Below are positions 21,922 to 59,411 of a stretch of 64,000 nucleotides of DNA, in pieces; position 1 is the first letter of the stretch; each line of letters begins with the position of its first letter. This DNA comes from Acholoe squamosa (Eukaryota; Annelida; Polychaeta; Phyllodocida; Polynoidae): positions 41,764,002 to 41,828,001 of the forward strand of contig OX439046.1 of assembly GCA_949317995.1 (NCBI GenBank), written 5' to 3'. Made by a program: the position numbers and the translations under genes. The notes beneath the pieces are model-generated. The model did not search any database. It saw only the letters and a program-made list of their open reading frames with translations, and was not told the DNA's origin.

Positions 21922-22048
21922 GGCTCGTTCTCACCAACGTGATGCAATTTTTTCGGGGAGGTTTCTGACCGAGGTTTCTGACCGAGGTTTCTGACCGAGG
22001 TTTCTGACTGAGGTTTCTGACCGAGGTTTCTGACCGAGGTTTCTGCCC
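21922..22048 (+). repeat. Left TIR of the large element
   Basis: A 36-bp tip followed by seven contiguous units of GAGGTTTCTGACC starting at 21,958, 21,971, 21,984, 21,997, 22,010, 22,023 and 22,036. The last unit has CCC in place of ACC. Confidence 0.95.
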
Positions 22049-23097
22049 GTTGACCAAAGTGCTCCAAACAGAAAAATTCTTTTGACTTAGGTGACAAGAA
22101 GTTTTCTAATATCTGTTTCAGAAGAAAAAAAAAACTGAAACGCTTTTCTCTCCCCCTTTTTACCTACAGTTAAGCAAGCAATCCTAAGCTGTGTGAGGTT
22201 TCTGACCGGCAAATTAAAAACGTCCTAAAAAGCGGGTAATTTAAGTATTTAAGAGACAACAGAAAACAAACAGACTTTTTGTTAGTTCTTTCAGTCACTC
22301 ACTTCTTCATGTGGTTTTAATTATATTATTTCTTTTATTTTTAAGTCCTTGAAGACTCCCGAAAGCTCCAGTATCGCACAGAAAAAATTTCCCTCTTTTT
22401 CTTGTTTCTGTCACGGTCCTGCTTTCAGTAGATAACTTGAACTTCTCTTTCCTCCTGTCAGAGTCATATCTGAAGAACGCCCTTGTGCTTTTGTTTCAGA
22501 AAAAAACTTTCCTTTTTCTCTGTGAACGCTAAAAACCCCCGAGCAGAAACCTCGTCGGTCAGAAACCTTACAGCAGTCCTTCGGTCAGAAACCTCGTCGG
22601 TCAGAAACCTCCTCTCCCGGGCAGAAACCTTGGCGTAACTGGATACATGTATGCTTGCACACACGTATGAACATGGACAGAAACCTTGTCGGTCAGGAAC
22701 CTTGGCACAAAGGATAGATCATTAGAACTGTCTACATGTGAATGGCAACTTGTACTCTGAGACCTTCCTTTGTTTTTTTTTTCTTTTCTTCCTCTGAGGT
22801 AAATTTATGTCTGAGGCAGAGACACATATTAAAAGAACACTAGCTGTCCTCCGGTAAGAGCTTCATGTGGCAGACACGGGTCATGAAAGAACACTAGCTG
22901 TCCTCCGGTAAGAGCTTCATCTGGTAGACACGGGTCATAAAAGAACACTAGCTGTCCTCAGGAAAGAGGTGGAGGAGTCAGAGACTGGTTATAAAAGAAC
23001 ACTTGCTCTTCTCAGAGAAGACATCTGTCAGGCAGACACATGTTTTTTTTTCACAAACCATGGTCCATTCTTAAATTGAAAGATAAATCTGGGTTTC
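22049..23097. other. Left non-coding region of the large element
   Basis: No gene seen. It carries 13-bp motif copies at 22,195, 22,541-22,634 and 22,675-22,712. Four tandem 54-bp units (each opening AAAGAACACTAGCTGTCCTC or a close variant, at 22,832, 22,886, 22,940 and 22,994) lie just beyond the 3' end of gene A. Confidence 0.75.
22832..23047. repeat. 54-bp tandem repeat, four units
   Basis: Units start at 22,832, 22,886, 22,940 and 22,994. The first two are nearly identical and the last two are diverged. The array lies just after the stop of gene A, in its presumed 3' untranslated region. Confidence 0.75.
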
Positions 23098-26000
23098 CTA
23101 AGGTCTGACGTCACGGTTGAATCCCCAGTCCACATATTTCCTGAGAGATATTGTATCTGTGACAGCCCAGTCGTCGCTCGATGTCTCTCCGTCCAACAGC
23201 TCATTGACAAATTCTCCTTGTCGACGGGCTGCGGCTATTCTGTCGAAGTGGGCCCTCTCAGTGTCACTTAGGTCTTTATCAGGATAATAGTCAGAATCGG
23301 AGTCACAGGAGGAGGAGGAGGAGTTCTCCGAAGAGTAACCCTCAGACTGAACGTTGTCGTTGTCACAATCGCTATCGCCAGGTGTAGGTGTAGGAGCAGG
23401 TGTAGTAGCAGGTGTAGGAGTACCTGTTGGAGCAGCTGTACGAGCAGACTGTGCAGCAGAAGGAGCAGGTGTACGAGGAGGTGTACAAGCAGACTCTGTA
23501 GCAGTAGGAGCAGGTGTCGGAGCAGACCCTGTAGCAGCAGAGGCACTCTTTTTCCTTCGCTTCGCTGACCGGCGTTTCCTTCTTTCTGCAGCACGACATA
23601 TGTTGAAAACATAGTCTTCCAGATGGCCGTACTCCTCATCACTGCTGAAGACCTCCTCTGTGATGCCGGGAACGTTGAAGCCTGCTGCGTCCTCGACTAT
23701 GTCATCGTCTGGCTCAACTTCCGGTTCGACAGGAGCATCCTGGACAGTAACCAAGGGCATCTCTGTACCTTCATCTTCGGGTTCCCCCGTCGATCTGACT
23801 GTGCGCCTTTTCTTCCTCACGGAAGTAGCCTTTCGTTTTTTCACAGGCTTCGCGTCCCAGGCGTCACATGTCGGCCGCAGGTCCCCGTCTCCCATGCAAC
23901 ACTCCTGGTAGCACGAAGTTCCTCTCAGGTAGAGCTTCTCCGTGAACACAGTAGCATGGTGGTAGTAAAGTATGTCCTTGACAGGGGGAGATTTCCACGA
24001 CTTGACGAGATTCCTGGCAGATTCTACCTCTGCTGACTTTGTCCTTAGGAGGGAAAGCTTCACTGTCTCAGGTTGTACCTGCTCTATAAACTCGTCAGCG
24101 TTTTGAATATGACCTGACTGCTTTATTATGCGGTCAGCCATACCCTTCACAGCTCCCCCGATGCCATCACACGGACCTTTTCCGTGGCCCGCCTCTAGCC
24201 AATTCCATGTGATGCGTACGCCAAACAACCCAAACGCCCTCCGCAGCAGCTCGCAGGAGTACCTGTTTCTGTACTGTGACGTTGGGGAGTCGGTGACAAG
24301 GTGGATGTGCTTGAGGTTCGGTTCCACTTTCCTGATCTGATCAACAAGCTGTTTGATGAAAGTCAGTGTGGTCGGGAACGAGTGAGAAGTCACCTCACTG
24401 ACACCTACATAGTTGACATTTTTCAGCTTCTCACTGTCTGGTACTCGGTGGTAAACTACCATAGGGTGTAGAGTGATCTGGTCCTTGGCGAAGAAGGCGG
24501 AGGAAATCTCTCTCATAAAAGAAGTCGCCCAGTTCTCCGCGTAGTCCATTTGACAGATGACATGCTGCTCAGGAAGATTTTCCTTCAGTTGGCGGATGTT
24601 CTCGTACTGAGCGACCACACGGGCTTGATGTTCCCGGAAAGGTTCCAGCTCAGCCAAGAAGTGCAGCTTGAACTGGTCCGACGTGAGCTTCTTCTTGACC
24701 AGGACGGTATGGTACACAGTCCTACCTTTGTATTTTCTCTCCTCTGTCTCCCAACGCTTAAAGCTGATTATAGAGGAAGGAATCAACTGCAGACGAGCAG
24801 TGACTTCACCGTCTGTCAACTCCAGGAGTTGTGAGGTGCGGTTTGGCAAAGCGTCCACAGCCTCCAGCAGCATCCCCATGTTAGCGTGCGGCTTACAGAG
24901 ACAGATGGCCCTCTTCAGGAACACAGAGGTGCGCACTGTCCTTTTGTCTCGCGCCTTGCAGAAACTAGGGAATGAGACAGTGAGTGCCGTCTCGACGACA
25001 AACTTCTTGTGAAGATTCCTGAGAGAGTCGACAAGAGCTACAACTGGGACAAAGTCTCCTGTTATTTTGCGGTAGTATTTCTTGTCGGGAAGCACATAAC
25101 TGTTATCCTCTCGTCGCAGGAACTCGTTCACTGCCTTCTGCTTACTCTGGGAGATGTCCTTCCTAGACGTGGCCTTTCTTCTGACTTTAGTAGGAAATAC
25201 GGAGTTCCGGCAAAGGCGAAGGGCTTTGGCTATAGCAGATTTCTGGCCCTACCTTTTCCTAGAACCGCCACACCGAGCACTGAAAACTCTTTTCTTGGTG
25301 TCAGTGTCTATGTGTTTTAACTGCTCTTTAATTTCTACTAGGTGAATCAGCTTCTTCAGTTTCGATTCCTGACTGCCAGCTTCATCCAATTCCCTGAGCA
25401 GATGCAACGTCAGAGTTCTAACAGAGGTTTCCAGAGGGTCAATTTCCATCTGAGAACAGTCAGGATCAGGTTCATTTCTTGGAGGGGTGTCAGAAGGCTG
25501 CTGGTGGTCACTGGGACAAGGTGACGCCTGCACGGGGCCGACTGACACAGCCTGTTCCTCGTCGTCCGTGGACTGGCCAAACTGGTGGGTATAAGGGTCT
25601 ACCTAATGGGGACACAGTTCAACTTCCGGGTAAGGGGTGTCAGAAGGCTGCTGGTTGTCACTGGGACAAGGTGACGCCTGCACGGGGCCGACTGACACAG
25701 CCTGTTCCTCGTCGTCCGTGGACTGGCCAAACTGGTGGGTATAAGGGTCTACCTAATGGGGACACAGTTCAACTTCCGGGTAAGGGGTGTCAGAAGGCTG
25801 CTGGTTGTCACTGGGACAAGGTGACGCCTGCACGGGGCCGACTGACACAGCCTGTTCCTCGTCGTCCGTGGACTGGCCAAACTGGTGGGTACTCGGGTCT
25901 ACCCAATGGGGACACAGTTCAACTTCCGGGTAAGGGGTGTCAGAAGGTTGCTGATTGTCACTGGGACAAGGTGACGCCTGCACCGTGTATAACGAGAGAT

Positions 26001-27533
26001 CCTCTCCGTCCTCTTCATGGGGGGGCTCACCAGAGGAGTCTCTTGTGGTACCAAACCAATGCCGAGACTGTTCCTGTTGTGAGTCAGGCGTATCAGATTC
26101 CTGCTGGTTGTCGGTGAGACAAGGCGACGCCTGCACCGTGTATATAGAGAGGTCCTCTCCTTCGTTGTCATTGGGGGGGTCGCCAGAGCAGTCACTTGTG
26201 CCACCTACCCAATGCCGAGACTGTTTCTGTTGTGAGTCAGGCGTATCAGATTCCTGCTGGTTGTCGGTGAGACAAGGCGACGCCTGCACCATGTATATAG
26301 AGAGGTCCTCTCCTTCGTCATCATTGGGGGGGTGGTCAGAGCAGTCACTTGTGCCACCTACCCAATGCCGAGACTCTTCCTGTTGTGAGTCTGGCGTATT
26401 AGATTCCTGCTGCTTGTCGCTGGGACAAGGGGACGCCTGCACAGACGTACATGACAGTTCCTGTAGGGACTCACTAGAGGGCTCAGTTCTGCTATGAACC
26501 GAAAGGGGAGACACATGGGCAGGACTAAATGACTGTTCCTCTCGTTCGTCTTGAGAGTTGTCTGACTTGACAGAGGCAGCTGACACAGGGCCTTGGGGGA
26601 ATATCTCACCCTGTCTTAAATCAGAGGAACCTTCGCTGTCTGAAGGTAAGAAGACTGGGTCTTCAGGGAATGACCCTTCTTCCCAGTTCACCACTTGTCA
26701 TGCCTGAGTAGGAGTTTCCTCCTTGTCTGATGTGGAATCATAGTCAGGTACATCCACAAGGAGAGACCTGTCAGGTTGGGTTAACAACCGAGGCTCTGAA
26801 GCAGGTACATGTTCCTGGGTACAGGCATCCTGGTCACCCTCATTTTTCCTGTCTTCTGGCGAAAGAGGAGAGGCCAGCGGACTATCAGTGTCTACAGAGT
26901 ACTCTATGCAGGGGGTACACAGAGGTACTGGTTCACCGACAGGTGTTGAAGTGAGAGGGCCAAAGAAGGTCACACCCTTGGGAGTACAGGGAGACTTCTT
27001 CGGTTGCACTGTTGATTTCTCCTGAGAGCCAGAAGGGAGACAAGGACTGTCCTGTTTGTCATGAGATGACTGTGAAGTGTTCTGTAGAGGACAGCTATCT
27101 GCCTGGTCTGTGAAGTTCACTGAAGTGTTCCACTCATCTTCCGATATGCCATCCAGAAGCCTATCTAAACTGTCTTTAGAGTCTGCTTTAGTAGGTGAAG
27201 CGGCGTTCAGCTCCCCTTCAGGATTGCATGGTTCTCCTTTATCCGTAGGCTTTGATGCATGATCTGCTTCACCATCTCGAGGGACAACCTGTCCAGAAGC
27301 TGCAGGTTTCTTGGGTACCCGCCACCCCATTCGACCTATGGTAGTTACTACTTGGTCTGTGCTCCCAGATGTAGCTGATTCCTGTAAAGAAACTACCGGT
27401 TTTGGCGGTAGCTTGAACTCCACAGAGTCAGCTGTTTTGGGGGTTTTGGACGACTTGCCTCGGTCGAGTTTAGACTTCCTCTTCCGTGGGACAGACGTCT
27501 TTCCTTTCTTCTTTATTGTCAGCACGAGAGGTC
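23098..27533 (-). CDS. Gene A: transposase-like protein of the large element
   Basis: One minus-strand frame runs from an acceptor (TTATTTATTCTGCAG, ending at 27,534) to a TAG at 23,098, broken only by in-frame stops: TGA at 26,698 and TAG at 25,753, 25,603 and 25,249. The N-terminal third is basic then Ser/Pro/Glu-rich, with 50-residue repeats containing VQASPCPSDNQQ. The conserved part, from about 25,220, has IAKALRLCRNS, VNEFLRREDNSYVLPDKK and ICLCKPHANM (possible Cys/His site). A DDE-like core follows: CQMDYAENW (Asp), HLVTDSPTSQYRNR (Asp), TWNWLEAGHGKGPCDGIGG (Glu). The tail is Lys/Arg-rich then acidic. The core recalls an uncharacterised transposase-like family spread in invertebrates that I cannot name firmly. 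The stops mean either a silenced copy or introns I could not place. Confidence 0.7.
25491..26440 (-). repeat. 150-bp coding minisatellite in gene A
   Basis: Three near-identical 150-bp units (boundaries at 25,491, 25,641, 25,791 and 25,941) are followed by three or four more diverged units of about 147-153 bp up to about 26,440. Each unit encodes about 50 residues with VQASPC.S..QQ.SDTP. Because the period is a multiple of three the opposite strand is also open, giving false plus-strand ORFs. Two units contain the same TGG-to-TAG change. Confidence 0.9.
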
Positions 27534-28252
27534 TGCAGAATAAATAATGTGACATAAATATAACTTTTCAAAGTCATCTGGGGTGGGATTTTAATTCTTT
27601 GAGAGGAAGAGATGTTCTTGTGTAAGCAGAGTAAAATCATGAATGTCTTTTATAACTTGACTAAAGAAAGAAGGCACTGTTTTTCTAAGATTTTATTTTC
27701 TGTTTTTCCTTTCACATGTCGGATTGATGTGCGGTCCACCTTCTAGCACACTGTGTCTATGCATGACATCTTCTGTACTGCTTGTTTGCCTTTTCACTCA
27801 ACTTAATTCACATCTTTTAGGACCCCCCTTCAACCAAGACAGAAAGCCGAGCAGAAACCTTGCCGGTCAGAAACCTCGTCGGAGAGAATCCTCGCTGGTC
27901 AGAAACCTCCTGGAAGAAGTTGAAGAGGACACGCTTTTCGTCTATACACTTTGCTTTCATTGGGTTAGAAGAAAGAAATTTAGAGCATACCAGACACAGG
28001 TTGGGAATGCTTTCTGTTTGACTTGTGAACCGAAGTTAAGGTATGCCTCCACGCTTAGAAACTTCTTTAAGAGAAGGTTTCTGACCGGTCAGAAACCTCC
28101 TAAGAATGACGTTTATAAATGTTACAACAGCCTACAGCACCCTGGTCCATCTTTTCGAAGAATTTCTTGTTTGGTGTAACTTGCAACGTGTGCAGAAATA
28201 ATGGTTCTATCAGTTGAAGATGGTTACCACCTTTTCTTCAAAAATTTAACTG
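27534..28252. other. Upstream region of gene A
   Basis: No supported exon, though the acceptor at 27,534 implies a 5' exon of gene A here or further right. Motif copies lie at 27,850-27,912, and a perfect 24-bp palindrome (AGGTTTCTGACC plus its complement) is at 28,075-28,098. ACTG at 28,249-28,252 is one half of the target duplication of gypsy element 2. Confidence 0.6.
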
Positions 28253-28629
28253 TGTAAGGGTTTGTGGCCTTACGGACCTGGGGGGTTCGGGTCTTACGAT
28301 TCGGAAAGAAAGAGTAAGACAGTATTCCAAGTGTATGCCAACGGTTAGGTTTATTACTTAATGCACACTCACGGCTGCCGAATGATATCAAAGAGGCAGC
28401 TAATATTAAAAGACAGTGGTTTACATAATGTGGAGGCCAGAAGGGCCTCTGACGTAGCGGCTGAGCCCTGGGCTTTATATACGGACCCAGGTGTTCGTCG
28501 TCAGATGTCCCCACAGACCCGGATCGGTGCTGCCACCTATCCGGAACCTGAGGAACGTCCGACGACTCGACTCACCCGCCACGTCAGACGGTACCCAACT
28601 CCTATGGTTTAGTAAAGTGTACCTCTACA
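28253..28629 (-). repeat. 3' LTR of gypsy element 2
   Basis: On the plus strand runs TGTAAGGGTTTGTGG...CTCTACA. Identical by eye to 40,718-41,094. On the element's own strand it follows a purine tract. Confidence 0.95.
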
Positions 28630-28642
28630 CCACTCCCCCAGA
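28630..28642 (-). promoter_or_regulatory. Polypurine tract of gypsy element 2
   Basis: On the minus strand CTGGGGGAGTGG directly abuts the start of the 3' LTR (TGTAGAGG...), the expected plus-strand primer for reverse transcription. Confidence 0.75.
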
Positions 28643-30140
28643 CATTTAGGAGGGTGTTATACGTATAATATTACTAGGATAACATTTCTACATGTCTAAA
28701 CCTTTAGTAATAGAGGTACAACCATAGGTATAACATTAGCACTAAATAAATTGTGAACCAGATGTCATATATATATATTCGATAGTGAATTTTAGTTACA
28801 TATAACGATTAGGATGTTGAAATATTATACGAATTACTTGAAGAAGAGACAGTTATGTGAAACGGAACTGTCTATTTAATTATTATACCACATAATATTG
28901 TATTATATTTCAGGTATAATTAATAAGACAAGTAATATGAATCGTATACATGTGATGATGACAGCTATATGTAACGGAACTGTCGATAATAAAACATATC
29001 ACAAAATAACATCCGTATGTGTGTTTGTAGTCATTGACAACACATTTGAATATGTAGTCTTAAAGAAGACTGTTATAGTAACATCACTATCTAATGACAT
29101 GTCGTATATTAATATTATACGAATCCGTTAAGGATTCCGTGAGTAGTACGAATATGATTATTTATAACATACACTTGAAAAAAAAACATCACGGTGTGGT
29201 AATGAATATAATAATATATTATCACCGTGTACCTAATAACCTTTATAGCACCAGATCATTATACTTATTATATATTTTGTCTCGCAGGACAATAATATGT
29301 GTTATCTGGTGGAGTTTAACGGATCTTATAATATAAATACTAATAGTGATTAGAGATCCGTATCAGGAAATGTCTATGTACCCGTATTATAATATGTATC
29401 TAGTGGATATGTACATACATATAATATTATAGAAAAATAGAAATATGACATTATATACAATATACAGGAATTATAAATGCTGCTGGAGTCTTCTGCTGTA
29501 TCCTCCGGGTACTAGTAGGTAGGTGTGGTCAGCTAACCACGGGATGGACGTGCTAAAGTTTATAGTTTCCTTATATTGAGTGAACACGGTAGTTGATTTG
29601 GGGCAGCTACCCACAATCCTCTAGTAGTGCTAAAGTTTATAGTATATCCGAATGGTGTAGATTTGTAGAATATTAGTCCGGATGTGTCAACTGTGTAGAG
29701 AACGTAATCCTTTTTAAGTTTTAGTTGACATAAGTAAAATAATAGTCCGATATAGGTTGATCCGGAAGTAATAGTAGTAGAGATATAAGTCCATTCGGGA
29801 GTACAGATGAGTTGTAGAGGTAAATCGTAAAGTCCATCCTAGTAATTGGTTAGCACGGGTAACAGCAGGAGTCTGGAACTGGCATCCGGATACGTCTCAC
29901 AGCAGCAAGTCTACTATCGGATTGTTCATGGATGAAATTATAAATCCGAATAGGCTATTCAGGGTGTAATAAATGTTATACAACCTGAATAATAGACTGG
30001 TCAAAGGAACCCGGAACACATAGCATAGGTGTTCATGCACTAGTAAAAGCATTCGCAGACCTTTAGGGTTCCGCAAAGACTATATCTGGTCATTTGGTGT
30101 TGGAAAAAAAAAATTATGGAAGAAATAACCCTAGCATGCT
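28643..30140 (-). other. AT-rich 3' region of gypsy element 2
   Basis: About 1.5 kb between the ORF3 stop and the purine tract without a coding frame longer than about 80 codons. The base composition is sharply AT-rich compared with ORF3 and pol. It includes repeated TATTATACGAAT / TAATATTATACGAAT-like words near 28,820 and 29,110. Its role is unknown. Confidence 0.7.
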
Positions 30141-33107
30141 TTAAACGGATTTCTTAGCATGCTTCTTCTTCAGAAGAGCTAAAGCCGACTCGGGAGTGCC
30201 GTCCCACTCGTCCAAGTCGACTCCGAACACCCTCATGAACTTAGTGTTCAGGTTGGTGTTCCGAGTGATCTCCTCCTTTACACGCTTTTCCAACACGTGT
30301 ACATCCATAGCTGCTTTTTCTTGAGCAGCTGAGGCAGCCTCCTCCTGGGCCTTTACATCGTCCCGGATGAGAGTCTCGAGACGTTGCTTTTCAGCGTCGC
30401 CCACCTGTTTCATACACAACAGAGTTTCGTTTAGGAGACCCTGATGAAACTCGATCGCTTTCTCCCGAACGGTCTTCTCCCAATGGGTGTAGATGGCCTT
30501 CTGGACATCTGCCTCCCCTTGGCGAGACTTCTCAAACCAAACTTCCGCATTACCAGTTTTAATGGTAATGGCGTCCTTCGGTTTCTCAGGTGCCGCGACA
30601 GCCTTGGGAGGAGTCGAGGCGGCCTGTGGACCACTTCCGGGTTTAGGACTCCCGGACACACCTGTCGTTGGTACACAGAAGGCAGGTGGTACATTCTGTT
30701 TCAGTCCCATTTGCAGGTACATGTTTAACTGCTCCTGGGTAAAGGTAACTGGTGGGGCGGCTGGAGCGGATGCAGATCCGGCGGCAGCAGATGCGGTGGT
30801 CTTCTTTGGCATAAGGCGACCATCCTTTCCTACCACCAAGGTCTGGCTCTCAGGTCCAGGTCCCTGGTTTAAGGACGGAAAGTTTCGAGAACTCACTTTC
30901 CCAGGTTTAGATACGGCTCCAGCGTATCCGGCAGGTTCAGGCTTCTTGAACACCGGAGTGCCCTGAGCCTGTTCTGCGGGGTGCCTTGTCAGAGGGGACC
31001 TGGAACGGTCCTCTGCTCTGACCTTTGGTTTTGTCGTGCTCTGACCATTGCCGTTGCCGCCACGGTTCTGGTCTCTCCTGCTCCTTTCACGAGCTCTCTT
31101 TGCATCCTTTCCGGATTCCTCGCATTTCTGCCAGAGAGACTCGTGCATGTCCAATTTACCCTTTCCAGGAGTCAGGACTATCTTTGCTCGGAGTTTCGAA
31201 TCCTTGGTCTTCGGAACTTCGCAGAGGACTTGGTCCCCTGGTCGGATCTTAGACCAAGCATCCTCGCTCAGGCTATCGAACTCCTTCATGAGTTCCTGAT
31301 GAAGCTCCATGATGCGCTTCCGGGCCCCGTCCAAACCTTCTGCGTGGCATTTCTTCTGGTGTCTAGCCAGATCACTACGTCGGTTGTATTGCACCTTCGT
31401 AGTACACTTCTTGCCCTTCTTACCATAACTCGGATCACAAATGTAAACCGGGTGATGGTGGAAGTGGGCCTCTACCAGATGCCTTTGGAACCGGGCTGGA
31501 GTACTCCAGGTCCGGATCGAGACATCACTCGCATCCTGGCAGATAGAGAAGGGACAGGACTTTTGATCGTCACCGTACCACTTCTCTAAAGCCCAACGCA
31601 GCTTCCTCCTCTGGGTATAAGTGTAATACCCTTCGGTGTGGTTTAGCATAAGCCACATCTTTCGATAGGCTTTGCTCGGATTGGGGTCCTCGTCCGAAAG
31701 GCGCATCCAATCTTCATCATCCGACTCATCGTTCTTATTGATTGAGTCTGGACAGGCATAGAGGGTAGAGCCGTCCTTCTTAACTCCGTACGCACAGTCG
31801 GAGAAACACGTCGGGATCCGGGTTTTGAATCCGGATTTGGCGTTAGCCCAACGTTCGGCCTCGGTTTGAGTTGATGGAGTGGCCTTCTCATCATACTCAA
31901 CCGAGGATTCGTGCACCGACTCCTCGTCAGACGACTCAACCTCCATGGCAGTACTACCAGTGGTTGAGGTGCTGGGTTTCGGCTCGGCTCTCGCAGAATC
32001 CGGGAGATTCTTGAGCTTCCGAGCAGCGGATCGTCGGTTCTTACTGACCTTCCAGTCTTCCTCCGGTTCCTGGGTTCCGGATGTGCTGGAGGTCGTGGCT
32101 TCTACTGGAGTAGTAGTGCTGCCGGTAGCTGATGTAGCACTGGCGGAGCTTCTGGTGGCAAGCTTCAGGTCGGGGATAGGAGGTGCGGGTGCTTCCGCGG
32201 CCCTCTTAGCCTCTTCCTGTGCCTCCTGTTCGGCAGTCATGCGGCGGACAATAACCGTCCGAAGGGCTGCAGCTCGGTCCAATCCGATTAGTGAATTGTT
32301 CTGGACATCCACCAATTCCTGTTCGGTTATGTAGTAACCGTCGTCCCACTGCTCGAAGTTAGCAGCGGCCTCCCGGAATTCCTTAGTGGTCCGGCACGGC
32401 GTCCGGATAGCACTAGGGCGTGGGTAGGTCTGGCCATCGGTATCCCAGACACAGCCTACCCAGTTAATGTTCGTAGCCTTGACGTTCCACAGGGACTTGT
32501 CAGGCTTCGGATACGCTCCGAGCTCGAAGGCTCGGTTAGCTGCGTACACGGTTTCACGGAAACCGGCGTCCACCATAAGTCCCCGTTGGAACCACGGCCA
32601 GTCTCGAAGCCACTCGGGAGGCATCCTGGTCAGCTGTTCGGGAGCCATGACGCCCTCGATAGCTATCCTGACTTTCGGGTCCATCCTGACTGGTGTCCCG
32701 TCCGCGTAGGTCACTTGTGCCTGCAGTTCCGGGTGGACATACAGGTAGCGACCATCATAACTAGCTGGAAAAGGCTCCGCCACTGCTGGCTTCCACTCAT
32801 CCTTCTGTCCGTCAACTTGGGTAGTTTCGGACTCTGTCGCTGCGGGTTCAGCACTCGCAGTCGCTCCGGATCCCTCTGCTGGGAGTGGAGATAGCAGTTT
32901 CTCTGGCTCATTGAGTGAGAATGAAGCCAGCTTCTCCTCGAACGAGCGATCCGTGGGTTCCTCCACGTCCATCATCTCGCTCTCTTCCTGTGTAACAGGC
33001 GACAAAGCTTCCGGAAAAGCTTCTGCGGACGGAGTCAGCTTATCCGGGTCACCGGATAGCTTGGCTGCAGCTACGGATTCCTCAGCCATGACTGGGGAAT
33101 CGACCAC
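30141..33107 (-). CDS. ORF3 of gypsy element 2: zinc-finger/coiled-coil protein
   Basis: An intact 988-residue frame in the env position. Residues 1-100 are acidic and Pro/Ser-rich. A folded-looking region follows (YLYVHPELQAQVTYADGTPV; WLRDWPWFQRGLMVDAGF). A Ser/Thr-rich linker leads to ANAKSGFKTRIPTCFSDC and DESDDEDWM. Then come two C2H2-type fingers: CPFSIC...FQRHLVEAH and CDPSYGKKGKKC...LARHQKKCH. A charged, RNA-binding-like basic part (RARERSRRDQNRGGNGNG) follows, then a long helical region and the C-terminal motif DLDEWDGTPESALALLKKK. No signal peptide, furin site or membrane segment is seen, so it is not an envelope protein. A diverged copy of the same gene lies at 17,684-20,120 in element 1. 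Probably an intracellular nucleic-acid-binding protein of the element; the actual role is unknown. Confidence 0.85.
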   Translation of the reverse strand: MVDSPVMAEESVAAAKLSGDPDKLTPSAEAFPEALSPVTQEESEMMDVEEPTDRSFEEKLASFSLNEPEKLLSPLPAEGSGATASAEPAATESETTQVDGQKDEWKPAVAEPFPASYDGRYLYVHPELQAQVTYADGTPVRMDPKVRIAIEGVMAPEQLTRMPPEWLRDWPWFQRGLMVDAGFRETVYAANRAFELGAYPKPDKSLWNVKATNINWVGCVWDTDGQTYPRPSAIRTPCRTTKEFREAAANFEQWDDGYYITEQELVDVQNNSLIGLDRAAALRTVIVRRMTAEQEAQEEAKRAAEAPAPPIPDLKLATRSSASATSATGSTTTPVEATTSSTSGTQEPEEDWKVSKNRRSAARKLKNLPDSARAEPKPSTSTTGSTAMEVESSDEESVHESSVEYDEKATPSTQTEAERWANAKSGFKTRIPTCFSDCAYGVKKDGSTLYACPDSINKNDESDDEDWMRLSDEDPNPSKAYRKMWLMLNHTEGYYTYTQRRKLRWALEKWYGDDQKSCPFSICQDASDVSIRTWSTPARFQRHLVEAHFHHHPVYICDPSYGKKGKKCTTKVQYNRRSDLARHQKKCHAEGLDGARKRIMELHQELMKEFDSLSEDAWSKIRPGDQVLCEVPKTKDSKLRAKIVLTPGKGKLDMHESLWQKCEESGKDAKRARERSRRDQNRGGNGNGQSTTKPKVRAEDRSRSPLTRHPAEQAQGTPVFKKPEPAGYAGAVSKPGKVSSRNFPSLNQGPGPESQTLVVGKDGRLMPKKTTASAAAGSASAPAAPPVTFTQEQLNMYLQMGLKQNVPPAFCVPTTGVSGSPKPGSGPQAASTPPKAVAAPEKPKDAITIKTGNAEVWFEKSRQGEADVQKAIYTHWEKTVREKAIEFHQGLLNETLLCMKQVGDAEKQRLETLIRDDVKAQEEAASAAQEKAAMDVHVLEKRVKEEITRNTNLNTKFMRVFGVDLDEWDGTPESALALLKKKHAKKSV

Positions 33108-33598
33108 GGGAGTAAACTACTCCTTTTTCCGGCTTTTACGGCGCCGGGGCCGGCACAAACGGAGTCTGTCTACCAGGAGACAGACTCTGGAGGAGCAGCG
33201 GGGGGTTTGCTTAGCCGGTAAAATCCAAGAAGGGAGCGAGCTCGACCGTCTTGGACGTTACCGAAAACAAATATGGCGACAGGCCAGCTTTCGTGACGTC
33301 ATTTCCCCGCGGTCCGCGAGGTCACGAGAGGTCAGCCGAGACTGGACACGGTGACGTCATGCGGAAACGCACGTGCTACAGGCGGTACATCAACAAACTG
33401 ATTGTTTTTAGGTAATTATCGCTCACCCCGATGACTCGACTGGGGATTTAAGTGGAGATTATGGAAAGCTTAAGCAAATCCACCGGATTATCCGTCCACT
33501 ACCCATTGGTACATCATGCGGGGGCGACAAATAAGCCTTTAGGGTCAGTTGTCATCCGTTCCTCTAAATGTAAACATTACACTCGTTGTGTATACAGG
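33108..33598 (-). other. Spacer between pol and ORF3, element 2
   Basis: No gene seen. It could hold an internal promoter or splice acceptor for ORF3; neither is evident to me. Confidence 0.6.
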
Positions 33599-40692: not shown

Positions 40693-40704
40693 CAGAATTA
40701 ACTG

Positions 40705-40716
40705 GTCACGGCACCA
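40705..40716 (-). promoter_or_regulatory. Primer-binding site of gypsy element 2
   Basis: On the minus strand TGGTGCCGTGAC begins one base after the 5' LTR, matching the 3' end of tRNA-His. Confidence 0.8.
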
Positions 40717-40717
40717 G

Positions 40718-41094
40718 TGTAAGGGTTTGTGGCCTTACGGACCTGGGGGGTTCGGGTCTTACGATTCGGAAAGAAAGAGTAAGACAGTATTCCAAGTGTA
40801 TGCCAACGGTTAGGTTTATTACTTAATGCACACTCACGGCTGCCGAATGATATCAAAGAGGCAGCTAATATTAAAAGACAGTGGTTTACATAATGTGGAG
40901 GCCAGAAGGGCCTCTGACGTAGCGGCTGAGCCCTGGGCTTTATATACGGACCCAGGTGTTCGTCGTCAGATGTCCCCACAGACCCGGATCGGTGCTGCCA
41001 CCTATCCGGAACCTGAGGAACGTCCGACGACTCGACTCACCCGCCACGTCAGACGGTACCCAACTCCTATGGTTTAGTAAAGTGTACCTCTACA
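40718..41094 (-). repeat. 5' LTR of gypsy element 2
   Basis: 377 bp, identical by eye to the copy at 28,253-28,629, TG...CA ended. On the minus strand it reads into the primer-binding site. Confidence 0.95.
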
Positions 41095-43787: not shown

Positions 43788-46700
43788 TCATACACACCGT
43801 TCTGGGTCTCTTGAGACCTGCACAGTTGTTCCTGATGGGGTGCAAAAAGTAAAGACATTGAAGGACTGAAATTTGTTTATCATTTCACACAACACGGTGT
43901 CAGCGGAAAGGAAAATTTGAAGGGGATCTGCCGTTTCCTGAGACTACTGTTAAATTAGACTAAGCAAATGAAGAGAAATAGTTGATAACCTTACCTGACA
44001 CAGAGTTATTGGTGGCCAGGGGTGCTTGTTCATCTGCAGGTGCCACAAGTGTCTTATCCACCTGTACCCTGCTGACCTGTTGTGAGGTGTCGCCAGTTTG
44101 AACAGGGAGGGCTGTCACCAGAGTCTTTTCCTCCTCCTGCCCGGTCCTAACCCGAGGGGAGGTGGCCTCAGAGTGAGTGGTGACGCTTTCACCCTGAAGG
44201 GGGGTGACAACAGTGTTCTCCTCCTCCTGCCCGGTGCTCACCTGAGGGGAGGTGGCCTCAGAGTGAGTGGTGACGCTTTCACCCTGAAGGGGGGTGACAA
44301 CAGTGTTCTCCTCCTCCTGCCCGGTGCTCACCTGAGGGGAGGTGGCCTCAAAGTGAGTGGTGATGCTTTCACCCTGAAGGGGGGTGACAACAGTGTTCTC
44401 CTCCTCCTGCCCGGTGCTCACCTGAGGGGAGGTGGCCTCAGAGTGAGTGGTGACGCTTTCACCCTGAAGGGGGGTGACAACAGTGTTCTCCTCCTCCTGC
44501 CCGGTGCTCACCTGAGGGGAGGTGGCCTCAGAGTGAGTGGTGAAGCTTTCACCCTGAAGGAGGGTGACAACAGTGTTCTCCTCCTCCTGCCCGGTGCTCA
44601 CCTGAGGGGAGGTGGCCTCAGAGTGAGTGGTGACGCTTTCACCCTGAAGGGGGGTGACAACAGTGTTCTCCTCCTCCTGCCCCGTGCTCACCTGAGGGGA
44701 GGTGGCCTCAGAGTGAGTGGTGACGCTTTCACCCTGTAGTTGAACGTTGCTGACCTGTGGTGAGGAGTCATCGGTGGTGTCGGGGAGGCCTTGAACCTGA
44801 ACACCAGCCACCACGGTCTTGTCCAGTACGGTGCTCGCCTGTTCGGAGGTGTCCTGACAGTGGGTAGGGAGGTGTGCTGGAGTTTTACCTGAAGAATCAA
44901 TGTAACATAAGTCATGCTGAAGGAAGGACAAGGACGGAAGGCAGCCTAAACTTCAGAAAGTTAGTATAACTTAGCCGGACATGGCGGTCAGAAACCTCTT
45001 TGGACAACTTGGAGAGCTTGACAGTTACATTGTTCAAGACAAACAGCACGAGGATTTCTGACCGAGCAGAAACCTCGGTCAGAAACCTCGTCGGCCCTTT
45101 CAACATTGTTCTTAAAGTGTACCACGCGTTAGTCAAGTACTCGACGGAGGTTTCTGACCGAGCAGAAACCTCGGTCACAAACCTCGTGTGACTGGCGGAC
45201 AGGTTAAGACATATAACGACACAAAGAGCAATGAGGTATGTACATGGAGGTTCAAGAAGCACTTCTGACAGATAAAATGTCTGATATCACTGCTCACCTG
45301 ATGGACCGTCATCCTCTTCCATCACGAAGGACCGCTCGCTATAGCTGTGGTCCAAGGAAACGGCACATGCTCGACCTGAACCGACAAAATAAATGAGATG
45401 AATTAAACATGCTTCAGTAAATGGCAGTAAGAAAAAAAAGGGGGAAATATGCCTGTCTTGTCGCAGTCGTTCACAGAGGTCAATTCACTGTCAGGAAACT
45501 AATTATAGACTCTTAGGCAGGATAACAAATTTGACTGGAGATTGGTACAGTACTCTGTCTGAAAGTAAATTGACGGTGGGACTTAGAAGACTAGTAAAAA
45601 TTTCTGTGCTTTTGTTGACTTAAGGTGTGTTGGATGACCCTGGTTCATCTAAGTGTGTCAGACTGTCCGATAGCAGATGAAAGAGACGCAACTGTACTTA
45701 CTTAACGCCGGGGCCTTCTTTGGCTCCGGAGAAGAGGAGCGAGACGAAGAGGGGGAACCACCACCTTCCATAAAACGGGATACCTCGAGAGATGGAGTAT
45801 AGTCCAGGGACAAGCTCCCTTTGTCCGTAAAGGGTATAGGCATGTACTGGGGTCTCTCCTCGTCTGAGGAGGCAGGAACAATCTCGGTCTCTGAAGAACA
45901 GTAGGAAAGAGGACATGTTGTTTATTTCATGCAGAAAAAAATAAGCAGGTACAAATTATCTTTGTCCACCTGAAGAAATTTAACAGATATTTACACTTTT
46001 CAAGGGGGAACAGTGAAGTCTGGACATATATCGGTCTTCAATGGCTCGGTTCATGGAGCAATGAGTCACCTGTTCCACCTTACACATCTGATAACAACCA
46101 GAACTATTCAATAGTTTTAATGATTCAGGAAATAAACAGATCAAAGAACATGCCAAAATCTATCTGAAACACTGGTGGGCGGTTCATAGAGACAAAATTA
46201 ACTGTCATGCATACCTTCCGAGGAATAGTGTTCTGCTTCTGTCTTAATGTTAAATACCGTCTCATCTGGCTTCTCTAGAAAAATAAAAAAAAAATTGACA
46301 ATCAGAGGGAGGGCAAAGAAAAACCTACTGGCTGAAAAGCAAAGAAGATGTTATGTCTTGTCATGTACACAAATATGTTTAATACAGACGTCTTTCTATA
46401 GTTGGTTGTCGACGTCGGTCAGAAACCTCGGTCAGAAACCTCGGTCAGAAACCTGATGCATACAGAGATCAGATAATAATATGACGGAGGTTTCTGCCCC
46501 AGCAGAAACCTCCGTCAGCAACCTAAGTCGAACCATTCAAACAGACTAGGAACTGTAGTACCTGCGCGAGCAGAAACCTCGGTCAGAAACCTCGCAAGAT
46601 AGAAGAAGGAATAGCATAAAACTTACCACGCTCAGCTGCTGATGACTTTGCCATCTTCGTCGGAGTAAGGGAGGCCAGCTCCTCTGGGGCCAAATCCTCT

Positions 46701-49700
46701 GGAGGCCATCTGAAGACTGTGGCGTTGCGACTCCTTCGGGTGGACACTCGACGCTGTTGATGCTGGCTGACACTCGGACTGCCTGCAGAAGATGACACAG
46801 ACTTTACCACATCCCTGCTGGCGGCTGTACTTTGGTTTCGATTCAAGGCGGCTGAGGAAGAGCCAGGAGACGTACGTTTGCTCGTGCTTTGTGGTGTTGC
46901 CTTTTGTGCTGTTGAATGTGAGGCGGGGGAGGAAGATACAAGACATGTTGTCTGTTTAGTCGTTCTGGGTGTTGCCTTGGCAGCACTAGAACCTGTAGAC
47001 TTGACTACGATACTCGTAGCTGTGGTAGTTTTGTCACTGTTGGAGGCAGGTGTGGCACTAGGTCGACCAGCTTTTGCTCCTGTGGGATGAGAGGATGTGG
47101 ACTTGACATGAACTGTAGTACTTTGTTCACAATTCGAGGTGCCGGAGGAAGTCCCCGGGGACATCTTCGTCTTCCTCATGGCAGGTGTTGAAGTTGGTTG
47201 AGCACCTTTGGCTGCTGTGGGGTTAGTGGATGTGGACTTGACATGAACTGTCCTAGCTGTATTACTTTGTTCACGATTCGAGGAGCTGGAGGAAGTCCCC
47301 GGTGACGTCATCGTCTTCCTCATGGCGGGTGTTGTAGTTGGTCGAGTACCTTTGGCTCCTGTGGGGTCCGAGGTCGACTTTGCGAGACGACCGGCTGTAG
47401 TTACGTTACGATTCCTATCAGATGAAGTCCCAGAACATGTCGTCCCTTTGCTCGAGCTTGGTCTGCTCGTTTTTGGTGTCGCACAGGGTGAAGCAGAGGA
47501 TGAGGAAGACCTTTGGTCTCGATGGGAGGCAGCGGACGACCGGGTCACAGCTCTTGTAGTCCGATCATGACCTGTCACAGGTGTCGACTCTGGTCCTGAA
47601 GAGAAAGAAGTCCAAAAATTTGCAGTTCTGAGAGGAAACATTTAGCTCTCTGATAGGCACAAAGTGCACGAAACTATGGAGAATTCTCGTCTAGTCCACC
47701 TCAGATCCTACAGCAGGCAAGGCAACATGATTAAGTACCACACGCAGCAAGAGTAAACTAATTACGTCACCTTGCAGTTCATCTGCCTCCAATCGGGACG
47801 GAAGAACAGCCGCACGAAACTATGGCTTTAAGTTTAAAATTGCACTTACTTACTTACTAAATATTTAAGCATGACAGCCTTTGGTCATTAGGGCAAAAAT
47901 GAGGACTGAAGGCTTTTTAGTCATAAGGTCATTAATTACAGTAGTAAAAGATTTTTGATTTGAAGGTTTGCTTGTATGGGTGACAGAAAGTAGTACATCA
48001 TCTATGTCAGTGCAATAACTTGAAGAGAAACGTATAGGAGGTGGCAGCAGGACACCATCAAATTTCATACACAAGACAAGAAAGATGTACTCACTTGGAA
48101 CTTCGTTGTCTTCATCGGAAGACGAATCGCGATGAGACGGGACAAAGAAAGGGCTTTTACGGGAAACCACTGAAGGAAGAAAAGAGAAGAGGAAATAAAC
48201 GTCTGACTGATGTTTATGATTTCATTTTCATAAGTCATGCTTCAGACGTGAAAAGGCTCACTTATTTACCAGGTCAGGGTCTGTCATTAATAAGGTTACA
48301 GTGCTTCTGGCTGATCTGTATTCTGTTTTTTCGAAAAGGGCTCAAGAAATCAGGTTGGAGACTGTGTGGCCACTTCACACCAAGGCAAAGAGAAATTGTG
48401 CCCAGCAGGCAAGCCCTGTCCTCCCCACCTTCAAATTGTCCTATGAAAATTACGCGTTCAGATGAAGTGAAACACATAGTTTAAAAGAGAGAAAATGATT
48501 CTATTTCAATCTAAAATTTTATTAAGTACTGCACCCTGATCTTTTCCGAACCAGAATAAAATACAACATAGGTCAACGAAAAATGGAAATTAACTTTTGG
48601 ACAGCTGTGCCCAGTTGATTTATTTTGAGGGATGGGTATAGGGGAGAAACATTTGGTGACCCAAGTTGAAGTGTAGGGACTGAAATAAACTCACCGGGGT
48701 CTGATTTTCTTCGGCGTTTCTGGTCAGGGAGAGGGCCGGGAGCACACACATCTGCTGAACGCCGGCGAGTCACTCGTCCGCCGGATGCTTCTGCCTCCGT
48801 TCCTTGCGCCCGCCTTAGCGCAGCAGATGCCCTGTTGAGTTCTTTCTTCCTCTCCCACTGAGGAGTACCAACTGCAGGACGGTGTTGCTGAAAAGGGAAA
48901 CATTTTTATTTCTCATGAATTTTGTGTGACTTCAAGGACAAGTACTGTGATAAAAAAGTCTGATGTTGAGTTTGGGAAAGAAAGAAGACAGGTCCGGGTG
49001 ATCTCTCCACAGATGTAGGATATCAGTTGAACGTATTGGGTAGTAATTTTCAATTTGAGATGACAGGCAGAAAGGGTACATGTCTAGGATCGCTTCTAAT
49101 GAACGAGGTTTCTGCCCGAGCAGAAACCTCGGTCAGAAAGAGGGTGGGCAAAAATTACAGGGTTTGAGCAAAGACATTATAAATACAGGGATGTAAGTGG
49201 GGTCTTGAGAAAAACCCTGAAAAAACAGACCCCCCCCCCAAGGAAATCGTTGATATTCTTAAAAATGTCTGGTGCATTTTAGAGATTTTTATCTACTTTG
49301 GCTGATAGCGATATATCTTTTTTTCAAATAACATATATTTTTCCTTTAATTGAAAAGTGTCAAAAGCAAATACATTTTATAAATCCATACATCTCAACCC
49401 AGCAGACTGAGGGGGTCAGTGACAGACACCCATAGGGTTACTCCCTGTGGTTACTCAGTGAGAGTGCCACATCTTTGTGTACATGTTGATGTGGGGGGGG
49501 GGGCAGGGTCATCTATACCCATTATAGAACAAACATGAATATACCATTTTTAGGCATTTAAATGCATAGAACAACATCTTATCCTTCATGTAAAATGTGT
49601 AATGTGTCATTAAGAGATGACAGCTGTATGTTTTGGTCCACACACCTCCAGTGTCTGGTGTGTGACCACTGCCCCCTGTGGTGCTGACATGTGGTGCTGA

Positions 49701-51296
49701 CACAGGGGAGAGGTCCCACATGTGGCATCCAACCCAGATCAGCTTACATCAGCCTCTACTCTCCAACAAGTAAAACAGTTCCGATGGTTCGGTGTTGCGA
49801 AATAGGGATTCCCCCACCTCCTTTTTGAGCTTACAGCATTTCCCTCTTTTCCTCAAAATTAACAATAACAATGACACCGAAAACATTTTAAAAAGATCAA
49901 AGCCAATGTTTCTCATGTGCCCCTGCAAAACTTTGTAAAACATGGACATTTGCAGATCAAAAAATTTATTCAAAGTTAAAGTTCCCCATAATAGGCCGAA
50001 CGGTGAAGGATGAAATAGTTGGTGGGCCAACCACGGTGGGGCCGCTGACGCATGCTGTCGAGCGGGCGCACGTAGGAATTCGCTTCTGGGTAGTTTTTAT
50101 TTTTCTGTGGTCTTAGTCTTCCTAAAGGAATAGAGGACGGAGTTTTCTGACCGAGCAGAAACCTCGGTCAGAAACCTCGGTCAGAAACCTCAGCTGACTA
50201 TCATCTACAGCCTTTCGCTGTTCAAATGCAGACTGAGGTCACAGAATAAAATCCACCCAGAAGCGCAACTCTACGGTCACCACCCCCACGCCATTGGGGA
50301 GTGGCCCCCTGGTGGTTGGCCCACCAACTACTGCACACTTCAACGTTCCGCCTATGGCAGCTCACTTCGAGATTCAATTTTGATGTGTAAATGTCCACAT
50401 TTCACTATCTTGTGGAAATATGGCTTAAACACATATATATCAGATTGATTATTTGAAAGCACTTTCAGCGGCATTGTTATGGTTACTTAAGAGGAAGAGA
50501 GGGGAATCCTGCAAGTTTAAAAAGGAGGTCGGGGAACCCCTGTCTTGCAGCACTCACTTTTCGGTCTTAACTTTTTTCTCTTGTAACCAAACTTTAACTT
50601 TTGAACGTATATATGACATTTGCGGACCTTCTGAAGTAGGATTTAGTTGCCGTGAATGCTATAACAAATTATTCCTTCTGATCCAAAACATGAAAAGATA
50701 TTAAGAACACAAAAAAGAAATCCTTGTTCACCTGACTTGTATTGGTACATAAGGGTGCATTACATTGATTATCGTTTCAGTGGAAACTTTTTTAAAAAGT
50801 AGTGGGAGGGAGGGAGGCTGCTTTTTTATTTAATTTGTTGTGTCGTGATTTTGGAAAGAGGGAGGTAACTTTTTCTTTTCTCGCCAGTATGATTGTTATC
50901 AAAAAATGATTTCTCCCTTACTTGTCTTCCCAAGCAGCCTTATAACCTTGAACAAAAGAATAATATGTGAATAAATTAAAATATGACAACTAATAATATA
51001 GTTCAAGAAGTAAGGGAAAGAGAAAGATGTAATTTTTACCTGTGCTCTCCCCCGATACTCCTGTCTCTTTTCCTCCGCCTTCTCCTTGTCGTCACCATGT
51101 ACCGTTGATTAATAACTCGTCCTGCTGTTCCTTGCGCTGCGGGCATTTTGGTATATTCTGGTGTCAGCTGCATTGAACAGATGGAGGTAACCTGCCCACA
51201 ATTTGACGACTTTGTCTAGCTCCGGGAACGGCATCCGAGGTCTGGGTTGTGCCAAAGGTACATGAAACGGAAACTGGGCTTGGTAATCCTGCTCTC
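43788..51296 (-). CDS. Gene B: multi-exon Ser/Thr-rich protein of the large element
   Basis: Exons on the minus strand: 51,040 upward (reads DDKEKAEEKRQEYRGRAQ), 48,887-48,695, 48,169-48,095, 47,595-46,627, 46,274-46,215, 45,890-45,702, 45,375-45,298, 44,888-43,995 and 43,831-43,788 (TGA stop overlapping an AATAAA). Each junction has an AG acceptor and a GT donor. From the exon at 48,887 on all introns are phase 1 and the joined frame is open for about 820 codons, strong support for a real gene. The protein is hydrophilic: a charged N-terminus (KKELNRASAALRRAQ), a long Ser/Thr/Lys-rich part, and 30-residue tandem repeats near the C-terminus. The 5' exon region (51,040-51,296) has WAGYLHLFNAADTRIY, an in-frame TAA and an unclear start. 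No known domain is recognised. Confidence 0.7.
43995..44888 (-). repeat. 90-bp coding minisatellite exon of gene B
   Basis: Six near-identical 90-bp units plus diverged flanking ones (about 44,100-44,740). Each encodes a 30-residue unit, e.g. LQGESVTTHSEATSPQVSTG plus QEEENTVVTP. As the period is a multiple of three, the plus strand is open too. The exon has a TTCTTCAG acceptor and a GTAAGG donor. Confidence 0.9.
46627..47595 (-). CDS. Largest exon of gene B
   Basis: 969 bp, phase 1 on both sides, between CTCTTCAG and GTAAGT. It encodes a Ser/Thr/Ala/Lys-rich stretch with loose 50-60-residue repeats (TPAMRKTKMSPGTSS, TPAMRKTMTSPGTSS, and VHVKSTS / VVKSTGS), ending with FRWPPEDLAPEELASLTPTK. 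The composition suggests a disordered, heavily modified chromatin- or DNA-associated protein, but nothing identifies it. Confidence 0.8.
48888..51039 (-). other. Long intron of gene B with motif copies
   Basis: No exon supported. Motif clusters lie at 49,106-49,138 and 50,142-50,192. Two inverted segments (around 49,980-50,060 and 50,260-50,345, containing GTTGGTGGGCCAACCA and GGTTGGCCCACCAACT) form a large palindrome. Confidence 0.6.
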
Positions 51297-53219
51297 TTCA
51301 TTCGCCATGGTGAACCTGGAGAAGAAAAAAAAATTAATAGAGCAAGACAGGCAACACATACATGACAAAATATACTAGATATAAGACACTATAAGATGTC
51401 ATTTAAAAAGGGAGGAGTAAAAAAGGGTATGGAGGAAGGCAATTTTTTTTTTTTATCCCCCCCTTTTGAAGGACCGAAAGGCTGTTTGGATTAAAGAGAA
51501 CAAAATACCCCCCCCCCCTATGTTTTACCCCCTCCTGCCCGTCCCGTGAAGAAACATTTCTTATGAACTTCAGTGAAGGTAAAACTTCTCAGTCAGAAAC
51601 ATGGCAGAAAGGAAGGAGAAGCCACACATGGCTTCTTCTTGCAGCAGGAAGGAGAGGGAGAGAGGGTGACCAAAAAAGAGAGGCAAAGTCCTATGAAGAC
51701 CTCTTTTGAAAAAGGGAGAGCCACATGGGGGGGGGGTTTCAAATAACTGGGGGGGGCATGAGGGTCAAAAATATGGCTATTTCAAGATGACTTGACTTAA
51801 GTTTATACTGTGTTTAGAAATATACTGAAGGGGGGTCCCCAGGGAAAATTTTAGAAGTGACATGGTGCATTCTGAGCCCACAACAGGCCTATTTTTCTCA
51901 ATATTTAGCACAAAGGATACCTTAAAATGTATGAAGAAGTTTTATCAGTTTCATTTTGTCTTTTGACCATCATCTAATAAGCAGAAGAAAGTCCCCCAAA
52001 ATGTTGGGGGGGGCCTAAACATAGTCTGGCCCCCCCAACTTTGATTTCGGGGGGCCGTGGCCCCCCTGGCCCCCACCCCCCCGTTCCGCCGCCCCTGATT
52101 TCATCATCGATCACAAAGCTTTCGAGCAGAAACCTCGCGACGAGGTTTCTGACCGGCTTCTGACCGGGCGCCTCGACGGCGGGGGAAGAGGGGACCGCGG
52201 CGTTAGAACGACGAAAAACGCTTCTAAAGAGACAAACAACCATAAATCTACGTGTTATATGTGTCCCCCTACCTCTGTCCACCCTATGAGCAAGTTTTAC
52301 TTACAGTTGCACTCCTAAGTCAGAGGAAATTTGGCTTCGTCGAGCAGAAACTTGAGAAAGGCATCCTCCCTTGCAGCCAAAATGTCTCCAGAGTGCCAGA
52401 AAGAGGCCAGGCTTGGAGCTGGTTACCTGCGGGTGGGGGGATTAGTTCCAAAGAAGGACTGTAGGGGGCTTTTTCGCGCGCTATCTGCCCGAGCAGAAAC
52501 CTCGTCCGACTCGACCTGGAACACAAAGGGTGGGGGCTGAGGGAAGGGAGGGGCCCCTAAAATTAAGAACATGACTTGGGAAGACGCAAAAAAAAAAGGA
52601 CTTACGAGAGGACCCCTACCCCACAGTTAAATACTCCCAGGAAAGGCCCCCCGGGCAGCCCAAAGATGGAAAAAAGGACCCGGTCAGAAACCTTGTCAGG
52701 AGGGCAGAATAAGAGTTCCCCCCCCCCCAAGTGTCTCCTTCAGTCTCGAGGTGAATAAAAGTGAGACAGAGGGACAGATGAATAAGGAGGGCTGCGTGTA
52801 GGACAGTGACCCCCATAGAAAAATATGGACACGCCCTTCTACAGGGTGTTTTAGGTTCCCGGTCAGAAACCTCTTCAAGGAAAAAATTTAGGAAAGGGGG
52901 GGAATGCATGGAAAAAATTGGGGATGACGCATGAAAAAAAAACAAACACAGGCTGTTATGTTTACTCACCTTTCCATCTGAGAAGAAGACACAGGAAGTC
53001 CTGCAGTCATTTTCTCCAGTTGTATTGCCACGAAAACCCGCTGTCTGAGGGACAAGGCAAAAAAAAAGGAAGCCCTCTTCCGAAAGAACAGCACGGCCCC
53101 CCTCACCTGTCACAGGAAAACTTCACTTTCTGCTTAAGGAAAGTGGGGGTCAAGAAAAAAGTGTGCCTTTCAGTCACCAAATTTGAACTGGAGCATGAAA
53201 TAACTTTTCTCCAACGGTC
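51297..53219. other. Right non-coding region of the large element
   Basis: Low-complexity G- or C-runs and poly-purine tracts. Motif copies lie near 51,593, 52,121-52,170, 52,490, 52,683 and 52,861. It could hold the 5' exon and promoter of gene B; a TTTTCTTCTCCAG acceptor near 51,320 points that way. No other gene seen. Confidence 0.55.
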
Positions 53220-53346
53220 GGTCAGAAACCTCAGTCAGAAACCTCGGTCAGAAACCTCGGTCAGAAACCTCGGTCAGAAACCTCGGTCAGAAACCTCGGT
53301 CAGAAACCTCCCCGAAAAAGTTGCATCACGTTGGTGAGAACGAGCC
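53220..53346 (-). repeat. Right TIR of the large element
   Basis: Seven contiguous units of GGTCAGAAACCTC from 53,220 to 53,310, then the 36-bp tip in inverse orientation. It matches the left TIR with one mismatch in the tip. Confidence 0.95.
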
Positions 53347-59410: not shown

Positions 59411-59411
59411 C

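Follow-up and report, generated by a model that had tools for sequence, protein, structure and literature searches.

The locus examined here raises the question of whether a stretch with mirror-image ends in the genome of the polynoid annelid Acholoe squamosa is a single mobile element, and of what the short units repeated at its ends may do within it. The stretch lies in a 64-kb window (the whole segment of DNA that was analysed, C12:41764002-41828001), and the genome searched comprises 1.48 Gb. An earlier sequence-only reading had described 127-bp mirror-image ends, composed of a 36-bp tip and 13-bp units and flanked by GTAA, and each of these features was re-found in the sequence. The interval 21922-53346 is a real, unusually large cut-and-paste DNA transposon (Table 1). 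Our explanation, which we regard as probably correct, is that it is an autonomous transposon of ~18.6 kb with a single intron-rich DDE/D gene and 4-bp target site duplications (TSDs), and that a motif forming the core of its end units marks predicted protein recognition sites.

Table 1. Features of the element and of the insertion within it (positions in the window)
Feature	Position	Strand	Basis
TSD GTAA, left	21918..21921		sequence inspection
Left TIR: 36-bp tip, then seven 13-bp units	21922..22048	+	sequence, Tandem Repeats Finder
Interior motif sites, 7 at ≤1 mismatch, downstream of gene	22195..22687		
ORF of the predicted transposase core (gene A, 716 aa), with D235 (MDYAENW), D320 (TDSPTSQ), E352/D361 (WLEAGHGKGPCDG)	23098..25248	-	
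Coiled-coil-like segment directly before core, kept in L024	25249..25602	-	sub-cutoff Pfam CLZ match
Probable exon, ~50-aa peptides repeated in tandem (150/153-bp units)	25753..26697	-	
Probable exon, 289 aa, N-terminal part basic	26698..27567	-	
Interior motif sites, 5, upstream of 289-aa exon	27852..28099		
Nested gypsy-type LTR retrotransposon, not part of element	28253..41094	-	identical 377-bp LTRs, TSD ACTG
Interior motif cassettes, 10 sites; -16+13+ arrangement at 42395 and 42494	41115..42632		
ORF holding in-frame tandem repeats of 30 aa (90-bp units; copy-variable number)	43960..44952	-	
Interior motif cassettes, 6 sites	44989..45185		
Interior motif cassettes, 7 sites, last overlapping 3' edge of 352-aa ORF	46420..46593		
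Ser/Thr-rich ORF, 352 aa (gene B region)	46583..47641	-	
Probable exon(s) (TPQWERKKELNR...LPDQKRRRK), counterpart of sister exons 2-3	48576..48905	-	E 0.006 and 0.2, each weak by itself
Interior motif cassettes, 6 sites	49105..50191		
Conserved N-terminal exon (...DTRIYQNARSARNSRTSY), counterpart of sister's first coding exon	51112..51297	-	E 4.7e-7
Interior motif sites, 5, toward gene's 5' side	52127..52873		
Right TIR: 36-bp tip, then seven 13-bp units	53220..53346	-	sequence, Tandem Repeats Finder
TSD GTAA, right	53347..53350		sequence inspection

Boundaries, copies and target site duplications

The interval spans 31,425 bp, and subtraction of the nested gypsy and one 4-bp duplicate leaves a native length of ~18,579 bp, in agreement with the ~18.6 kb that had been estimated from the sequence. 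This size is unusual among cut-and-paste transposons; the longest groups of a curated bivalve library average ~5.5 kb (PMC10294476). The gypsy contains RT, RNase H, integrase and protease domains, and its empty site is present in all six element copies tested, the C2 and C9 copies, which are without that stretch, having been left out. Downstream of the gypsy pol lies a 991-aa ORF (30141-33116, minus strand) that has no Pfam match at E ≤ 0.01; the gypsy is young. On the right side of the window, a 1051-aa ORF (59364-62519, plus strand) has a weak sub-cutoff zinc-knuckle match and might represent gag of another gypsy-type element.

A search of the assembly with the terminal repeat, as the sequence-only reading had proposed, returned at least 45 matches to the left end (40 of 698 candidates scored) and eight copies with paired ends, 7-31 kb long and including the window element (C12:41.8M, C5:50.3M, C9:7.24M, C5:16.67M, C2:111.4M, C12:12.27M, C3:20.76M and C11:27.07M). 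Perfect TSDs flank six of the eight (GTAA, TTTA, ACTT, ATAT, TCAT and GGGT), with A or T at 18 of their 24 bases, and the other two are flanked by imperfect ones (ATGA/ATAT and ATAT/GTAT). Since copies possess both ends within differing flanks and differing 4-bp TSDs, the two ends form one mobile unit. The eight paired copies thus speak against a lone copy or ends belonging to separate elements, and the proposal of a large TIR transposon with 4-bp TSDs is borne out by a family of several copies.

In their main blocks, the remaining seven paired copies, and likewise 10 kb of an eighth copy at C10:65.6M, are ~91-99% identical to the window element, with one end block of the C12:12.27M copy at 85%. 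Without the gypsy, five other copies measure 16.0-18.4 kb; the C5:50.3M copy, which carries other inserts, measures 24.8 kb, and the C9 copy has been shortened by deletion to 7.1 kb. Five further loci (L024-L028) are diverged relatives. In one of these, L027, two right ends with an identical 12-bp flank (at 7570 and 9751, ~2.2 kb apart) represent a local duplication.

The two TIRs of the window element amount to 7.1 and 7.2 units of 13 bp according to Tandem Repeats Finder. In the other seven paired copies the ends carry 5-9 units by a loose count, and the two ends are always unequal. The seven units per end noted previously therefore hold for the window copy and not as a general feature, and the seven/seven match is a coincidence. 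Equal unit number as a sign of TIR copying was ruled out by the same inequality.

The transposase and its gene

With 62 of 4,870 candidates scored, the genome holds at least 99 stretches that match the core ORF, among them two groups at ~50% protein identity to the core with open frames of 892 and 909 aa. In a three-way alignment of the core with these two sister groups, QMDY.ENW, TDSP.SQYRNR and ITWNWLEAGHGKGPCDG are invariant, and E352 and D361 are each invariant in the three compared sequences. This D...D...E/D order is that expected of a DDE/D catalytic core, and we predict catalysis from it; the DDE-like core noticed earlier in one gene is thus DDE/D-like and conserved across sister groups. 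Comparison with the diverged loci L024 (dN/dS 0.072/0.464, 368 codons) and L032 (0.068/0.455, 465 codons; L032 itself contains stops) indicates that the core protein has been under purifying selection. Against close copies the signal is weaker (0.008/0.022, 0.006/0.026 and 0.012/0.026). In one other copy the core frame is open for 1,047 aa.

The profile search that had been suggested for this core did not yield a family, as Pfam gave no match at E ≤ 1. The sister transposases had just weak, irrelevant Pfam matches, and a PDB sequence search with the core returned nothing relevant. AlphaFold models of the 716-aa ORF and of a 232-aa core were poor (pLDDT 40 and 48), the low-confidence core model having the strand/helix order b-b-b-a-b-a-b-a, and the best of 459 Foldseek matches had an E value of 0.12. 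The assignment of an RNase H fold therefore rests on motif order and on this low-confidence strand/helix order, from which the core is predicted to be an RNase H-like (DDE/D) transposase.

The sequence-only reading had described two minus-strand genes, A and B. Its strand and its ORFs stand; exon order in the sister family leads us to revise the separate genes to what are most likely exons of one intron-rich minus-strand gene, with provisional exon boundaries and splicing predicted from the sequence. Peptides of sister exons 1, 2 and 3 (LPDQKRR) are matched in the window at 51.27-51.09, 48.89-48.80 and 48.73-48.71 kb, respectively, in the same order and on the same strand. Exon 1 is likewise present in the relatives L024 and L027 (E 4.8e-10 and 2.9e-11), where exon 2 is also matched. 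For exon 3, low-complexity matches elsewhere score better (E 0.011 versus 0.2), and sister exons 4 and 5 gave nothing convincing; among the upstream exons, only the first is a clear match.

That A and B are separate, with B a captured or accessory gene, we consider unlikely. The ORFs at 43960-44952 and 46583-47641 have no above-cutoff Pfam match and no convincing sister counterpart, the sole sister match of the latter being compositional (E 2.3e-4 with filtering off), as such a gene would allow; against it, these ORFs are bracketed, on the same strand and in the same order as in the sister, by sister-matching stretches, upstream at 51.1 and 48.8 kb and downstream in the core. The Ser/Thr-rich ORF is open, at 265-448 aa, in six of the seven other copies listed, and the C10 stretch stops short of it. 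A single long minus-strand gene, beginning close to the right end and reaching almost to the left one, would encode a transposase that combines the conserved core with a long repeat-rich N-terminal part. Tandem repeats in this N-terminal half are in frame and encode disordered-looking peptides. As coding minisatellites (25483-26442, 150/153 bp; 44122-44736, 90 bp), they vary in copy number among element copies.

A family-specific motif in the interior

The 13-bp units had been noted at the ends alone; the dispersal of their motif through the interior is an addition to that reading. The window contains 47 exact copies of the unit core, CAGAAACCTC, where 0.20 would be expected, and none of 100 shuffles reached this number. 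Of these copies, 14 lie in the end arrays and 33 in the interior of the element, with none in the gypsy and none in the other 32.6 kb. At ≤1 mismatch, 60 sites are found in the element, none in the gypsy and one elsewhere in the window; the specificity of the motif refers to the 64-kb window and the fetched loci. When no motif was named beforehand, CAGAAACCTC emerged as the most dispersed interior 10-mer, with 12 clusters >200 bp apart; no 10-mer exceeds 3 such clusters in the gypsy or 5 in the flanks.

Nearly all sites are non-coding. Outside the presumed coding set lie 32 of the 33 exact interior copies, and a single one of the 60 sites at ≤1 mismatch, the exact site at 46584 on an ORF edge, falls within this set, which was chosen by the analyst, covers 6.8 of the 18.6 kb and has provisional exon boundaries. 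The 46 interior sites (≤1 mismatch) form 19 clusters; the binomial probability of at most one coding site is 1.4e-8, or 0.0012 if 20 independent clusters are assumed. Spacing is also recurrent: among 27 adjacent pairs at most 60 bp apart, ten are plus-plus at 13 bp, seven minus-plus at 16, three plus-plus at 16, and two lie at 15. A minus-16-plus-13-plus cassette recurs, and the flanks of most cassettes look unrelated. The clusters at 42.5-42.7 and 45.07 kb, which have short common flanks, are probably duplicates. Nested short elements were ruled out as the origin of the interior motif, the tip being absent inside the window element at ≤4 substitutions in 26 bases.

In 17 comparisons with diverged loci, which cover 15 of the 46 interior sites, identity was 96% at the motif versus 70% in its flanks; usable sites came from four of the five loci, eight of the 15 sit within a single repeat-rich stretch (42395-42623), and repeated words are favoured by the alignment seeds. 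When other non-coding decamers were resampled 10,000 times, no resampling reached the 96%. Among close copies, motif sites showed no excess conservation over the rest of the non-coding DNA (higher in three of seven).

A sister element at C13:46993612-47005972 (12,361 bp) starts GACCAAGTTTACTG and ends CTAAACAGGGTC, with the TSD ATTT; a second sister copy ends CTAAACAGACTC, with the TSD TGTT, the ends being those read by the analyst. The TSDs are thus of 4 bp in both sister copies read, and the sister TIRs are ~29 bp and imperfect. Of 41 matches to the left end of the sister (the L039/L040 family), 21, distributed over 13 contigs, show no difference across 188 or more of 190 bases, the mark of a very recent spread of the 12.4-kb sister. 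Its own motif, GAGCAGACGCGG, is placed likewise: the 10-mers AGTGAGCAGA and GAGCAGACGC lead dispersal there, with 12 clusters, and none of the 25 sites at ≤1 mismatch falls in the 909-aa exon. GAGCAGA is common to the element and sister motifs (CGAGCAGAAACCTC; TGAGCAGACGCGG).

The third family, with the 892-aa transposase (L041/L042, C1:79.1M and C4:59.6M), carries long arrays of ~644-bp and 373-bp units, which flank its gene on both sides. The array units are ~98-99% identical, and the element seeds satellite-like arrays. In this family, CAACAATTG recurs widely across the 9.9 kb read; since 11 of its 17 sites occur one per 373-bp array unit, it was not counted as support.

Known systems and the role of the motif

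Among the groups compared by their published text, Sola2 fits a 4-bp TSD other than TTAA, and its AWWT target and short TIRs fit poorly. Sola2 elements have AT-rich 4-bp TSDs, a large transposase (888 aa in DFa-2), lengths of several kb and variable cargo, with TIRs of 12-21 bp and, in Dictyostelium families, AWWT targets (PMC3627910). The 4-bp TSD agrees with our element (six of eight perfect) and with the sister (two of two), a similarity by description. In contrast to Sola2, TIRs are 127 bp in the element and ~29 bp in the sister, lengths are 12-19 kb, and only two of the eight perfect TSDs fit AWWT (ATAT and ATTT; the rest are GTAA, TTTA, ACTT, TCAT, GGGT and TGTT). Sola transposases were reportedly found to be DDD by Bao et al. 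in 2009. Kolobok shares the DDE/D character; KolobokP/Kolobok are described as using TTAA targets, with long terminal direct repeats in KolobokP (PMC9587614). Unlike Kolobok and piggyBac, none of the eight perfect TSDs of element and sister is TTAA, and long terminal direct repeats are absent.

A virus-derived origin is suggested by the length and the long inverted ends. Polinton/Maverick elements have a 6-bp TSD and encode polymerase, integrase and capsid. The TSD here is 4 bp, the eight ORFs scanned hold no Pfam domain of polymerase, capsid, protease, ATPase or integrase, and a search of viral contigs for relatives of the core gave 155 pattern matches and none confirmed, which makes a Polinton/Maverick-like or other virus-derived element exceedingly improbable.

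Two published systems bear on the motif itself. The Galileo transposase (P superfamily, Drosophila) is described as binding multiple repeats within long TIRs (PMC3688188); our TIRs are similarly long and internally repetitive, but no THAP match was found in the ORFs scanned and the sites here extend throughout the interior. In Arabidopsis, the non-coding DNA of VANDAL21 contains repeats of a nine-base motif to which VANC21 binds, removing methylation, and related VANDAL families use other motifs (PMC5735166). The present case resembles this system in a short, family-specific motif that is dispersed as well as tandem, non-coding and different between related families; it differs in its host and in the absence of a MuDR-type Pfam match among the eight ORFs scanned. 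The VANC precedent fits the interior distribution better than Galileo does; the CpG ratio lends it no support. A literature search on dispersed transposase-binding motifs found no paper, and no animal case of VANC-type anti-silencing was found in the literature seen on VANC work, which is not proof of absence in print.

In the mechanism we propose, the transposase would bind the end arrays, cut at the tips and join with a 4-bp stagger; the TSDs are observed, and the binding is what we infer. The 13-bp end units and the 46 interior copies would be recognition sites of a protein that the element encodes, in the simplest case the DNA-binding part of the transposase itself, and another element-encoded protein might bind the interior sites. 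End arrays would serve synapsis and cutting. Interior cassettes could load protein along the whole element, giving stronger end finding or keeping the element open to transcription.

Two other accounts of the interior sites were weighed against this one. The motif may be an anti-silencing self-mark as in VANDAL/VANC, along which an element-encoded protein binds non-coding DNA and counteracts repressive chromatin by removing or blocking it, a view that we hold to be possible but doubtful. It is favoured by a motif that is near-confined to non-coding parts, clustered and family-specific, that of the sister differing yet keeping the GAGCAGA core; by the very recent spread of the sister family; and by tandem peptide repeats in the element protein, as reported for VANC proteins (PMC5735166), VANC21 motifs being described as lying in non-coding regions and forming tandem repeats (PMC5735166, PMC10398659). 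However, Pfam recognised no separate VANC-like gene among the eight ORFs scanned, and the CpG observed/expected ratio of the element (0.57-0.59) and of the sister (0.53) is below that of the flanks (0.64-0.67) and the gypsy (0.81), and thus gives no trace of methylation protection. Slippage and gene conversion of the end arrays alone could also have produced a motif without function inside the element: unit numbers vary freely among copies, some interior clusters lie within ~98-bp repeats, and close copies lack excess motif conservation. We judge this origin still less likely, given that the tip is missing from the window element's interior, that most cassette flanks seem unrelated though spacings recur, that sites exceed their flanks in conservation against diverged relatives, and that the sister has another motif in the same distribution.

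Going beyond the preferred reading of a transposon with predicted recognition sites, we suggest only tentatively that the element may belong to an undescribed lineage of giant transposons, in which a lone transposase with rapidly evolving peptide repeats would paint its own element via a family-specific word recurring in introns and elsewhere in the non-coding DNA, as a counterpart of VANDAL/VANC self-recognition and anti-silencing outside plant MuDR, and in which sisters would have switched words. The motif makes self/host discrimination by transposons and anti-silencing testable outside the plant system. Furthermore, a natural comparison is offered by the presence, in a single genome, of two sister families whose motifs differ and of which one has been active very recently.
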